Shown: one piece after another, positions 3,788-45,612 of the stretch
Numbering within the stretch: the stretch's first letter is position 1
How the letters are laid out: each line of letters starts with the position of its first letter
Assembly (NCBI RefSeq): GCF_019931575.1
Contig: NZ_CP082923.1
Coordinates: forward strand, 5,022,001-5,086,000
Length of the DNA: 64,000 nt
Direction: 5' to 3'
Origin: Caulobacter segnis
GTDB taxonomy: Bacteria > Pseudomonadota > Alphaproteobacteria > Caulobacterales > Caulobacteraceae
Program-made: the position numbers and the translations under genes
Notes under the pieces: generated by a model
What the model was told of the DNA's origin: nothing
The model's database searches: none
What the model saw: the letters and a program-made list of their open reading frames with translations, nothing else

Positions 3788-4774
<987 letters not shown>

Positions 4775-4847: not shown

Positions 4848-5972
4848 TCATTCAGCGGCGAGGCTTGCAGTTTTGCTATCGAGCAAGGGCTCCAGAAGGC
4901 TTTCCGCCAGCCAGCGTACGGCCGGGACCGCCACGCCGTCGCCGATCACCTGCAGACCGGCCGTCTGGGAGCGCGGCAGCCGATAGCTGTCCGGCAGGCC
5001 CATCAGGCGCGCGCCCTCGCGCGGGGTGACCAGGCGCGAGCGGACCTGGCCGTTCTCGATGGCCAGCAGGGTCTGGCGCGAGGAGCCGCCGCGCGGGGTG
5101 CGCAGGCAGCCGGCCACGCCGTCGAACCGCACCTCGGCCCGCTGGTCGCCGCCGCGCATGCGCCGGAACACCGCTCCGACCGCGCGTTCCCCCGACCGGA
5201 TCCGCAGCTCGACCGCCTCGCGGTGGCTGTCGGCCATCAGGGCCAGCAGGGCGTCGGTGCGCTCCTGCGGGTTCCAGGTCACGGCCTCGTCGGGCTCGAG
5301 CACCACGGCGAGGTCGGTGTTGCGGGCCGGCGGCGAGGGCACGCCCCACCAGATCCAGCGATCCTTCAGGTCGTCGGGCAGGCGGGCGGCGGCCTCGCGC
5401 ACGGCGCGGGTGTGGAAGGCGCTGGGCCCCTCCAGGTCGCCGGTCGGCAGGCGGGTGGCGACCACGAAGACGCGGGGCCGCGACTGCGGCACGAAGGCGC
5501 TGGCGTCGATCTCGACCGCCCCGAAGCGATAACCCTCTTCCGAGAGCGCGCCGCACAGGGCGGTGAAGTCGTCGCCGTGGTGCGAGGTCAGCAGGCCGAC
5601 CACATTCTCGATGACGATCAGCGGCGGGGCGCGACCTTCGGCCGACATCGCCTTCATCAGAGTCCAGAAGCCGAAGAAGGCCGAGGACTTGCCGCCCGCC
5701 AGGCCCGCCCGCGCGCCGGCCAGGCTGAAGTCCTGACAGGGGCTGGAGGCCCAGGCCAGGTCGGCGCTCGGGATCCGGTCCGCCGTCAGGGCGAAGACAT
5801 CGCCGGCGTGGAAGTGTGTCTCCGAATCCGGAAAGTTCGCCCGATAGACGTCCGTCTTCACGGCGTCGAAGTCGTTGGCGAAGGCGCAAGCCCAGTCGCC
5901 GCCCAGGCCGATGCGGGCCATGCCGCCGCCGGCGAAGAACTCTAGAAAGGTGTGGCGGGCGGTCCGATTCAT
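4848..5972 (-). CDS. DNA (cytosine-5-)-methyltransferase
   Basis: A 374-residue C5-cytosine methyltransferase. Motif I is FLEFFAGGGMARIGL near the N-terminus, motif IV is SSPCQDFS (catalytic Cys about 79), motif VI is VIENVVG, motif VIII is QSRPRVF, and the C-terminal motifs include RLMGLPDSY and GDGVAVPAVR. The target recognition region between motifs VIII and IX is moderate in length. No restriction endonuclease is adjacent, so it looks like an orphan methylase protected by the nearby Vsr. Caulobacter crescentus is known to carry an orphan m5C enzyme (reported site YGCCGGCR); whether this is its orthologue is inference. An upstream GTG (5993) would add 7 residues; motif I lies close to the ATG at 5972, which I prefer. 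Confidence 0.92.
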   Translation of the reverse strand: MNRTARHTFLEFFAGGGMARIGLGGDWACAFANDFDAVKTDVYRANFPDSETHFHAGDVFALTADRIPSADLAWASSPCQDFSLAGARAGLAGGKSSAFFGFWTLMKAMSAEGRAPPLIVIENVVGLLTSHHGDDFTALCGALSEEGYRFGAVEIDASAFVPQSRPRVFVVATRLPTGDLEGPSAFHTRAVREAAARLPDDLKDRWIWWGVPSPPARNTDLAVVLEPDEAVTWNPQERTDALLALMADSHREAVELRIRSGERAVGAVFRRMRGGDQRAEVRFDGVAGCLRTPRGGSSRQTLLAIENGQVRSRLVTPREGARLMGLPDSYRLPRSQTAGLQVIGDGVAVPAVRWLAESLLEPLLDSKTASLAAE

Positions 5973-42512: not shown

Positions 42513-42709
42513 GCGCTAGCCCCTCTTTTGCCTTGTTGGGCAAGCTTTCTAAGGGGCGTTACCCGGCGCCGGCAAGGCGGCTCTATGGCGGGTCGACTTT
42601 CACGAACGCATACCATGAACACTTTCGTGAGGGGATTGCGCGGCCGGCCGGGACACCCGATATTCATCTGGCGTCCACCGTGGACGCTCTAGCTCAAGGG
42701 CTTATTTCG

Positions 42710-43459
42710 ATGAACGACTTCAACCGCGGCTACGCGCGCTCGATCCCCGCGGATCGCGCCGACATGTCGGTTGACGCCGGCCTGCGTAGTTTCATGCTCG
42801 GCGTCTACAACAAGGTGGCGCTGGGCCTCGTCCTGTCCGGCGCCCTGGCGTGGGTCACCTCGTCGGTCCCGGCCGTGCGCGACCTGATGTTCGTCGTCCA
42901 GGGCGGCGTCCTGGTCGGCGTGACCCCGATCTATCTGGTCGTCGCCTTCGCCCCGATCGTCCTGCTGCTGGTGGCCGGCTTCGCGCTGCGCAACCCCACG
43001 CCGCAGACGGCCGGCGCGCTGTACTGGACGATCGTCAGCCTGATCGGCGCGTCGCTGGGCACCGTGTTCCTGCGCTATACGGGCCAGTCGGTCGCCTCGA
43101 CCTTCTTCATCACGGCCGCCGCCTTCGGCGGGCTGAGCCTGGTGGGCTACACGACCAAGAAGGACCTGACCGGCTTCGGCAGCTTCCTGATCATGGGCGT
43201 GTGGGGTCTGCTGATCGCCTCGATCGTGAACATGTTCCTGCACAGCAGCGCGCTCATGTTCATCGTCAACATCCTGGGCGTGCTGATCTTCGCAGGCCTG
43301 GTCGCCTACGACACCCAGCGCCTGAAGATGACCTACTACCAGCTGGGCGGCGACACGGCGGCCCAGGGCGTGGCCACCAACTTCGGCGCGCTGTCGCTGT
43401 ACATCAACTTCATCAACCTCTTCCAATTCCTGCTCAGCATCCTGGGCAGCCGCCGCTAA
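42710..43459 (+). CDS. Bax inhibitor-1/YccA family membrane protein
   Basis: A 249-residue protein with about seven membrane helices (from MLGVYNKVALGLVLSGALAW onward). The family segments ALYWTIVSLIGASLGTVFLRY, FFITAAAFGGLSLVGYTTKK and AGLVAYDTQRLKMTYYQ are present. Bacterial relatives leak calcium or act in membrane protein quality control with FtsH. The ATG at 42710 follows AAGGG; the in-frame region upstream to 42533 is not homologous. A strong terminator follows. Confidence 0.94.
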   Translation: MNDFNRGYARSIPADRADMSVDAGLRSFMLGVYNKVALGLVLSGALAWVTSSVPAVRDLMFVVQGGVLVGVTPIYLVVAFAPIVLLLVAGFALRNPTPQTAGALYWTIVSLIGASLGTVFLRYTGQSVASTFFITAAAFGGLSLVGYTTKKDLTGFGSFLIMGVWGLLIASIVNMFLHSSALMFIVNILGVLIFAGLVAYDTQRLKMTYYQLGGDTAAQGVATNFGALSLYINFINLFQFLLSILGSRR

Positions 43460-43939: not shown

Positions 43940-44272
43940 TCAGTCGACGACCGAGAACTTTCCCTTCTCGAACACCCGCAGCACCTGGGCCAGCTCGTGG
44001 CCGCGCTTAAGGATCTGTCCGCCCTGGCCGAACACGGCCCAGGCGCCCTGCTTGCGGCTCAGGGCCGGATGCTTCTCGACGCGATAGAGCGGGGCCTCGG
44101 CGGCGTGGCGGAAGATCGAGAACACCGCCCGGTCCGACAGGCCGGCGATGCCGTAGTCGCGCCACTCGCCGGCCGCCACCATGCGGCCATACAGGCGCAT
44201 CAGCTGGTCGAGCTCGCGCCGTTCGAAGAAGACGACGCCGCCGGGCGAGGAGGGATGGGTGTCCAGGGCCAT
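43940..44272 (-). CDS. DUF2794 family protein
   Basis: A 110-residue protein matching the alphaproteobacterial DUF2794 family: VFFERRELDQLMRLYGRMVAAG, WRDYGIAGLSDRAVFSIFRHA, PLYRVEKHPALSRKQGAWAV and LAQVLRVFEKG. The function is unknown, but the family is widely conserved in Alphaproteobacteria. Its start faces the small-RNA region. Confidence 0.85.
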   Translation of the reverse strand: MALDTHPSSPGGVVFFERRELDQLMRLYGRMVAAGEWRDYGIAGLSDRAVFSIFRHAAEAPLYRVEKHPALSRKQGAWAVFGQGGQILKRGHELAQVLRVFEKGKFSVVD

Positions 44273-44452
44273 CGGCGGAATCTAATCCCAAATCGGCCGA
44301 TTGGAACAGACATGGCGGGAAATGGGTCTGGCGGCGTTCGTCCGTGTCCGGCCGGTCACGCCCGCCAAAAATGACACGGCACGGTCAAGGTGCGCCCCGA
44401 TATGACCTTAATTTGGTCCTTCGCCCGCCTGTTTGCGGGTCGATAACATCAA

Positions 44453-44594
44453 TGTCGGCTGATCGGACATCCTTCGGTCTCGGATCCTGAACAGCCCCCC
44501 CAGCCCCCCAGATCGCGGGCCGGTTAGCCGACAAACTCTATATCCCCTCCCCCAATGAGCCCGCGCGGATCCTCCCCCACCGCGCGGGCTTTTT
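44453..44594 (+). ncRNA. Candidate small RNA A, C-rich loop with intrinsic terminator
   Basis: No gene fits here. TGTCGGCT (44453-44460) pairs with AGCCGACA (44526-44533), with three further GC pairs inside, and encloses a C-rich box that contains CAGCCCCCCCAGCCC from 44492. A C-rich single strand (around 44541-44553) follows, then a terminator hairpin: AGCCCGCGCGG (44558-44568), loop ATCCTCCCCCA, CCGCGCGGGCT (44580-44590) and five T. A CGATAA at 44441-44446 is a possible -10. The CCTCC loops could pair with Shine-Dalgarno sequences. Alternative: an untranslated leader with attenuator, but no gene follows on this strand. Confidence 0.65.
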
Positions 44595-44697
44595 GCGTTT
44601 TCAGCCTGGAAGGCGCGCCGCATAGCGGCCATGACCCGCCCTGAAAGCACCTTTGTTCGGCCCAGCCCTCGCCCGATGGGCCCGCGATAAAGAGATC

Positions 44698-44821
44698 GTC
44701 GACGAAGAGCGGACCGGGGTCCTGTCCAGCCCCCCCAGCCCACCCGGTCACGAGACGTTCGTCGTCGACATGCAAAAGGACCCGCGCGGCTAATCCCCTC
44801 CAGCCGCGCGGGTTTTCTTTT
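44698..44821 (+). ncRNA. Candidate small RNA B, paralogue of A with intrinsic terminator
   Basis: This has the same plan as element A. GTCGACGAA (44698-44706) pairs with the TTCGTCGTCGAC at 44758-44769 (with a bulge) and encloses the same 15-base CAGCCCCCCCAGCCC, from 44727. The terminator is ACCCGCGCGGCT (44780-44791), loop AATCCCCTCC, AGCCGCGCGGGT (44802-44813) and a T-rich tail. CGATAA at 44685-44690 again lies just before the 5' stem. In the two elements the sequence differs but the structure, the C-box and the -10-like hexamer are kept. The hairpin may also end the opposite DUF1223 message. Confidence 0.65.
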
Positions 44822-44844
44822 GTCCGGACGTCGGCGTGACGCCG

Positions 44845-45612
44845 CTAGCGTTCGAGCTTGGGGGTTTCCAGCACGCCCAGGATGCGGCCGCCCTTGGCGC
44901 CCTGCAGCAGGATTACCGTCTCCAGGTCTGGATCGGCGCCGATGGCGGTCGGCAGGCGGTAGAGCTTGGGCTTGCCGGCCCAGGGGCCCAGGCGGACCAG
45001 CTCGCGCACCACGTTGCGATGGATCAGGGTCTGGCCCTTGTTGTCGCCGCGCTTGATGGCGATGTCCTGCTCGCGCGGGTCGTAGCGCACCAGCCAGACC
45101 TCGCCGCCGCCGCCGCGCGGCGAGGGGCCGGAACCGACGGCGACCCGGGTCTTGCCGATGAATTCCATGTCCGGCGCGTTCACGGACGTGCGCTCCGCGG
45201 ACTTGACCAGGTCCTCGACCGCCTCGGCCTTGGTTCCGGACGCCTGGACGCGGCCCCCGACCACGATCTGGGGCGTGGGTACGTCGCGCAGGGCGAACTT
45301 CTTGGCGTAGGCGCGCTGGCGTTCGGCGAAGTCCGGCTTGGCGAAGGTGTCCTTCCAGCCGAGATAGTCCCAGTAGTCGACCGAATAGGTCAGGGCCAGG
45401 ACGCCCTCGCGCTTGGACAGGTCGGCCGCCAGCTGGTTGGCCTTGCCGCAGGACGAGCAGCCCTGGGCGGTGAACAGCTCGACGACGACAGGCGTCTTCG
45501 CCCTGGTCGCCACGGCCCTCGCGGGTTGGCTCCAGGCGGCGGGTCCCCATGACAGGGAAGAGGCAGCGCCGGACAGGGCCAGGCAGAGCAGGGAAAGGGC
45601 GGCCTTACGCAT
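44845..45612 (-). CDS. DUF1223 thioredoxin-like exported protein
   Basis: A 255-residue protein. It has an N-terminal signal peptide (MRKAALSLLCLALSGAASS), then PVVVELFTAQGCSSCGKANQ, whose CSSC is a thioredoxin-like CxxC, and YSVDYWDYLGWKDTFAKPDF, the typical DUF1223 segment; TPQIVVGGR follows. The fold predicts a periplasmic redox or Cys-binding protein; no role is established. Confidence 0.87.
   Translation of the reverse strand: MRKAALSLLCLALSGAASSLSWGPAAWSQPARAVATRAKTPVVVELFTAQGCSSCGKANQLAADLSKREGVLALTYSVDYWDYLGWKDTFAKPDFAERQRAYAKKFALRDVPTPQIVVGGRVQASGTKAEAVEDLVKSAERTSVNAPDMEFIGKTRVAVGSGPSPRGGGGEVWLVRYDPREQDIAIKRGDNKGQTLIHRNVVRELVRLGPWAGKPKLYRLPTAIGADPDLETVILLQGAKGGRILGVLETPKLER

Follow-up and report, generated by a model that had tools for sequence, protein, structure and literature searches.

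Genomic context of the two elements

The window, that is the whole stretch of 64,000 nucleotides that was analysed, carries a DUF2794 gene (43940-44272, minus strand) and a DUF1223 gene (44845-45612, minus strand) separated by exactly 572 bases, with an aconitase gene beyond the DUF1223 gene. The initial annotation had placed two consecutive elements built on one plan in this gap without a gene, and the coordinates bear this out. Both elements are on the plus strand and both flanking genes on the minus strand. Each element runs from an upstream motif through a CGATAA hexamer and a long hairpin to an intrinsic terminator:

44399..44419, plus strand: upstream motif of element 1, GAAAYGACCTTNNTTYGGNCC type (GACCTT in 22 of 22 aligned upstream regions of element 1 copies)
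44441..44446, plus strand: CGATAA hexamer of element 1, possible -10 (read from the sequence; partly conserved in relatives)
44454..44594, plus strand: element 1, small RNA CC3664 (RF01530, 120.8 bits; fold z-score -6.25)
44454..44532, plus strand: long hairpin of element 1 (predicted fold; consensus structure identical in RF01530)
44487-44489, 44490-44500 and 44501-44503, plus strand: apical parts of element 1, namely CUG, loop AACAGCCCCCC and CAG (predicted fold)
44492..44506, plus strand: C box of element 1, CAGCCCCCCCAGCCC (genome and window pattern searches)
44543..44553, plus strand: CU-rich tail of element 1, TCCCCTCCCCC (read from the sequence; unpaired in the fold)
44557..44594, plus strand: intrinsic terminator of element 1 (inverted repeat, fold, T-run)
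44643..44663, plus strand: upstream motif of element 2 (two mismatches to the GAAAYGACCTTNNTTYGGNCC-type motif; spacing as in element 1)
44685..44690, plus strand: CGATAA hexamer of element 2, possible -10 (read from the sequence; partly conserved in relatives)
44698..44819, plus strand: element 2, uncatalogued sibling of CC3664 (RF01530, 36.1 bits; fold z-score -5.44; partner element in 29 of 47 loci)
44698..44769, plus strand: long hairpin of element 2 (predicted fold)
44722-44724, 44725-44735 and 44736-44738, plus strand: apical parts of element 2, namely CUG, loop UCCAGCCCCCC and CAG (predicted fold)
44727..44741, plus strand: C box of element 2, CAGCCCCCCCAGCCC (genome and window pattern searches)
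44780..44819, plus strand: intrinsic terminator of element 2 with TCCCCTCC in the loop (12-bp perfect inverted repeat, fold)

The 15-base box that the initial annotation had reported for both elements is indeed the same. In the 5.17-Mb genome the exact 15-mer was found only at these two sites, with six more places at one mismatch, and in the window the two occurrences at up to one mismatch compare with 0.06 expected. The description of CGATAA 6-7 bases ahead of the 5′ stem holds as well, the distance being 7 bases in each element (the stems start at 44454 and 44698), as does that of terminators with a common core stem and a CCTCC loop, the CCCGCGCGG stem being present in both. The hexamer had also been called -10-like, which we could not confirm: a simple sigma-70 scan gave no promoter-like site in 44250-44900. 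The plus-strand terminators of both elements were not listed by the terminator scan; their loops exceed the 8 bases that the scan allows. When the predicted folds were compared with dinucleotide shuffles, the z-scores were -6.25 for element 1 and -5.44 for element 2, and in neither case was any of 200 shuffles as good.

Identification of CC3664 and its sibling

Element 1 was recognised by the Rfam model RF01530 ("Caulobacter sRNA CC3664") with 120.8 bits at a cut-off of 60, over the full length of the model (match 44454-44590). It is a confident member of this family and hence not new. CC3664 was reportedly described by Landt in 2008. The literature search, which covered papers without their supplements, returned no mention of either name, CC3664 or RF01530. 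CCNA_R0092 is given as cell-cycle regulated in a section of PMC3829707; its equation with CC3664 is unproven and is not relied on here. CcnA, considered as a candidate for its place near the origin, was ruled out, as CcnA is CCNA_R0094 and lies at the origin itself.

Element 2 (match 44698-44814) gave a weak match over the full model, with 36.1 bits and an E-value of 5.2e-4, under the curated cut-off of 60 bits, and is the second-best place for RF01530 genome-wide. Elsewhere in the genome, L003 (27.7 bits) and L004 (24.5 bits) also matched weakly and were rejected, having no C box at up to one mismatch. The layout that served as a criterion for CC3664, a long hairpin with an 11-nt loop closed by CUG and CAG and then a terminator, was found in both elements. 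Element 2 differs from the RF01530 family in its stem, in an altered start of the loop and in its score below the cut-off, and the tandem arrangement and common upstream motif of the pair lie outside the family model. In relatives, the second-position element reaches up to 61.4 bits (G056). The best RF01530 score, 168.3 bits, was obtained in G077, yet the second element there scores only 30 bits, so it would also be missed by a scan at the Rfam cut-off. The pair is real and conserved; a catalogue entry exists for element 1, and element 2 is a tandem sibling of CC3664 absent from Rfam, missed by the catalogue and not a member of Rfam grade.

Covariation in the stems

The stems were compared in 59 elements, 53 of them distinct, that the C-box pattern had picked up; this set omits the second elements with AGCCCCTCCAGCCC (L053, L058, L060-L063, L065, L070), the second element of L054, and L063 and L070 entirely, these misses being due to the C-box pattern or the 800-base limit. 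Across the outer 16 stem positions of the 53 distinct elements, 706 of 848 pairs were standard, and two-sided changes were seen at 13 of the 16 positions. Conservation of paired bases in related genomes had been named beforehand as a test, and it was found.

When the native stem arms were compared with arms swapped between elements, the 53 distinct elements formed 13.32 of 16 pairs natively against 10.97 after swapping, and no permutation out of 10,000 was as good; the comparison leans towards native pairs, the 3′ arm being ended at whichever GAC or GGC paired best, and its permutations ignore kinship. The two subsets gave the same count of 0 in 10,000. Within copies of element 2 (E2, n=23) the figures were 12.83 against 9.86 pairs, with duplex energies of -34.3 against -26.8 kcal/mol; within copies of element 1 (E1) together with single copies (n=30) they were 13.7 against 13.15 pairs. 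In ten distinct Brevundimonas-like loci, native arms reached -52.7 against -44.0 for swapped ones, with 1 of 10,000 permutations as good. For an unlinked third type (n=6), 2852 of 10,000 permutations did as well as the native arms, which is not significant. The initial annotation had seen in the differing stems with retained pairing a sign of selection on structure; the two-sided changes and the arm swap in relatives support this.

A common upstream motif

The GAAAYGACCTTNNTTYGGNCC motif occurs upstream of both elements, with one mismatch for element 1 and two for element 2. Its spacing is identical in both, the motif starting 55 bases before the stem and 42 before CGATAA. Among relatives, GACCTTA.TT..G.C is invariant across 22 E1 upstream regions, and the E2 upstream regions contain GACCTT in 18 of 22 cases and ACCTT in 21 of 22. 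CGATAA is weaker in some clades (E1 of L048-L059). Genome-wide, the GAAAYGACCTTNNTTYGGNCC-type pattern at up to two mismatches was found at 44399 and 44643 only; as the pattern was derived from these copies, this search speaks for its uniqueness only. A search for a wider regulon of the motif returned nothing beyond the two sites. Because motif and spacing are common to both copies, we would argue that the promoter region was duplicated along with the RNA and that both RNAs are probably under common control.

The motif, which the initial annotation had overlooked, is partly palindromic, of the GACC-N7-GGTC type. In other genomes, looser forms of it stand ahead of unlinked copies (L135, L138-L140).

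This conservation bears on whether the elements are independent RNAs at all. They could instead be bidirectional or plus-strand terminator or leader hairpins of the neighbouring genes, as there is a strong terminator at the end of each element, and the second of these was listed by the terminator scan on the minus strand, so that transcription of DUF1223 could stop there. However, conservation takes in hairpin, loop and upstream motif together, as one plus-strand unit, with both flanking genes on the opposite strand, and we regard such an origin as highly improbable.

Distribution among relatives

The scan for DUF1223 proteins gave 80 loci, and in 47 of them (L034-L080) the region downstream of the gene was examined with the C-box pattern. 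Both C boxes were present in 29 loci, one in nine and none in nine. Seven of the one-box loci (L064, L066, L068, L069, L071, L072, L073) are single-copy loci from Phenylobacterium or other Caulobacterales-type records, with the copy 122-230 bases from the DUF1223 gene. The other two one-box loci are L046, which ends 390 bases past the DUF1223 gene, and L054, where a second upstream motif is present and putatively also a second RF01530 hit of 57 bits. The loci with no box include L067, with 4 readable bases, and L078-L080, which are more distant DUF1223 genes in genomes that have the pair elsewhere. Most simply, the pair would have arisen by duplication within the Caulobacter line.

At E ≤0.01, RF01530 had matches in 97 of the 119 family genomes, and 38 of these genomes were above the cut-off. 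Of 385 genomes drawn from the class, two matched at E ≤0.001, both from the same family; this search used strict filters, and two family genomes (G002, G024) gave no match under them though the loop pattern occurs in both.

Further kinds of copies were observed. In L134, L135, L137, L138, L139 and L140, unlinked copies of the third type carry the identical apical unit on a shorter hairpin; by reading, no terminator of hairpin plus T-run directly follows this hairpin. Brevundimonas-like copies (L116-L125, L145, L146) have a wholly different stem, followed in most by GCUUCCUCCAAGC or a near variant with a CCUCC loop. Genes for a Bax-inhibitor-like protein and a LigT-like phosphoesterase lie upstream of the element both in the L145 genome (1662-2405) and in the window (42533-43459), so synteny on that side extends beyond Caulobacter.

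Conservation of the loop and proposed mode of action

The 21-mer CCTGAACAGCCCCCCCAGCCC, which contains the E1 loop, was exact in 29 of 31 family genomes, had one mismatch in one and was absent from one. Among 119 other genomes of the order it was exact in none, with one match at two mismatches, and CCTGAACAGCCCCCCCAGCCC read backwards as a control matched in 4 of 150 genomes. All 15 copies listed as single and 21 of 22 E1 copies had the unit CTGAACAGCCCCCCCAG exactly, but only 2 of 22 E2 copies did. It is thus in E1-type copies that the loop is nearly fixed; E2 retains the C-run and alters the rest. Nineteen distinct further places (21 loci, two repeats) fold into CUG, an 11-nt loop and CAG, with stems differing widely between groups; they were chosen by loop sequence and only their fold counts as a result. 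The C-run was exposed in every fold made of family members. CCCCTCC, searched from position 61 on, was present in 13 of 22 E1 and 20 of 23 E2 copies, and CU-rich stretches are missing from some copies.

On balance, we favour the view that the elements are a pair of separately transcribed, trans-acting small RNAs whose C-rich loop pairs with G-rich sites in mRNAs. The exposed C-run and the CU-rich stretches suggest a fit to G-rich ribosome-binding sites, and GsrN, which is laid out in a similar way, works through its C-rich loop according to PMC5869019. A tandem duplication including the promoter region would have given rise to CC3664 and its uncatalogued paralog as two separately transcribed RNAs, each with a long hairpin presenting the 11-nt C-rich loop closed by CUG and CAG, and then a terminator. 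The C-run would pair in trans with several mRNAs at G-rich sites, either ribosome-binding or in the 5′ leader, CU-rich unpaired stretches in the tail or terminator loop may assist it, and pairing would alter translation or stability of the mRNAs. The analysis shows homology, conserved structure, a conserved loop, the common upstream motif and the range of the family; what we infer in this picture is the transcription of both RNAs in this strain, the pairing mechanism, the targets and the sign of regulation.

In 26 genomes of the genus, the complement of the 11-nt E1 loop had 58 matches, compared with 27 for the backward control; the 58 include the hits of the elements themselves, expected at least once per genome and checked by place in four genomes only. 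In these four (G000, G077, G056, G047), five of ten complement matches were the elements and five were other sites, and the control had four. After allowing for these own hits, the complement is no clearer than the control. No single long complementary partner was found in this genome or in the 26 genus genomes. Moreover, near-fixation of the whole E1 apical unit exceeds what pairing with many targets needs, and this counts against trans-pairing, as do the copies that lack CU-rich stretches and the negative result of the simple sigma-70 scan.

The near-fixation would be accounted for if an RNA-binding protein reads the apical unit CUG-AACAGCCCCCC-CAG, so that the RNAs titrate, store or guide the protein and further copies raise the dose. 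The 21-mer, unaltered in 29 of 31 family genomes, and the unit, kept in 36 of 37 E1-type or single copies on varying stems, point that way, as do the extra copies at unlinked places in some genomes and the lack of an excess of long complements. However, the whole unit is present in only 2 of 22 E2 copies, and binding of such a protein to element 2 would then have to be weaker or of another kind; we know of no protein that binds the CC3664 apical unit, and none was found. We consider a protein reader rather unlikely.

The C-rich loops might also act as a sponge that pairs with and holds back a G-rich small RNA, as CrfA does on SisA-D. Sponging of one small RNA by another has been demonstrated in Caulobacter, according to a section of PMC12559287, and a long C-run would suit a G-rich partner. 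In this genome, though, GGGGGGCTGTTCAGG at 0 or 1 mismatch is found only in element 1 itself, and sites with two mismatches number 24 against 15 for the backward control, which makes a sponge quite improbable in our opinion.

A bolder version joins several of these observations. CC3664-type RNAs may form a Caulobacteraceae family with multiple copies, in which a single conserved partner, most probably a protein, reads the entire apical unit. For this partner they would be a decoy or platform with the dose set by copy number and the dedicated upstream motif, and element 2 may have drifted so that its C-run is read in a related but not identical way. We regard this as speculative and unlikely. 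In most of the Caulobacter loci examined, CC3664 is accompanied by a tandem sibling; some genomes have relatives of it at other places, and its loop is close to fixed throughout the family. The sibling RNA may mask the effect of a single deletion, and the comparison points to bases worth changing and to the upstream motif as a candidate control site.

Comparison with other C-rich small RNAs

The initial annotation had described two structured C-rich small RNAs, which stands, and had left their group membership between GsrN, cuckoo/CcsR and something new. Element 1 belongs to the CC3664 family with element 2 as its sibling, and the searches did not place the pair with GsrN or cuckoo/CcsR. As in ar14 and the cuckoo/CcsR RNAs, the loops of the elements are C-rich and could pair with Shine-Dalgarno sites, and CcsR1-4 likewise stand as several copies side by side. 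The ar14 model (RF02344), which we take to stand for the cuckoo group, scored 24.6 bits on element 1 at a cut-off of 58.8. CCTCCTCCC, present in the ar14 consensus and presumably the motif of cuckoo/CcsR RNAs, is absent from the window. A DUF1127 protein, given in a part of PMC10253847 as a neighbour at the cuckoo/CcsR CIN1 locus, was not among the seven neighbouring proteins scanned (small ORFs were scanned non-exhaustively).

SisA-D (alphaR8) are sibling Caulobacter small RNAs as well, with an anti-Shine-Dalgarno-like core, UUUCCUCCCU, according to a part of PMC12559287. They are dispersed and have unrelated promoters, whereas this pair is in tandem with a common upstream motif. As an identity of the pair SisA-D were rejected: UUUCCUCCCU at up to one mismatch occurs once in the window, at 4755 and not at the elements.

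The layout resembles that of GsrN (ccna_R0081), which in sections of PMC5869019 binds its targets through a C-rich 5′ loop. Both have a 5′ hairpin with a C-run in the loop, then a terminator; for the elements, the C-run in the loop, compared with the six-C loop of GsrN, was seen in the predicted folds. GsrN probably has an Rfam family of its own and, unlike the elements, a sigT-type promoter and a neighbourhood of GSR genes. The sigT-type pattern GGAAC-N15..19-CGTT has one match in the window, at 5165, far from the elements. The nepR, sigT and phyR genes were considered too, with NepR about 132 kb from the elements; this is a weak criterion, since according to a part of PMC5869019 gsrN of C. 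crescentus is itself distal from those genes.

RF01529 (CC3552) is not among the 12 matches at E ≤5 in 44300-44850. It matches at L163:8426-8532, about 130 kb from the elements and 1.9 kb from NepR, and the RF01530 model does not hit the RNA there. A GGAAC-N16-CGTT site precedes this match, in a 13.5-kb stretch where a relaxed sigT-like pattern has 11 matches. From its place, its length of 106 and its promoter, CC3552 is likely the GsrN of this genome, a family separate from CC3664, and this equation would tie the Rfam name to a characterised RNA.
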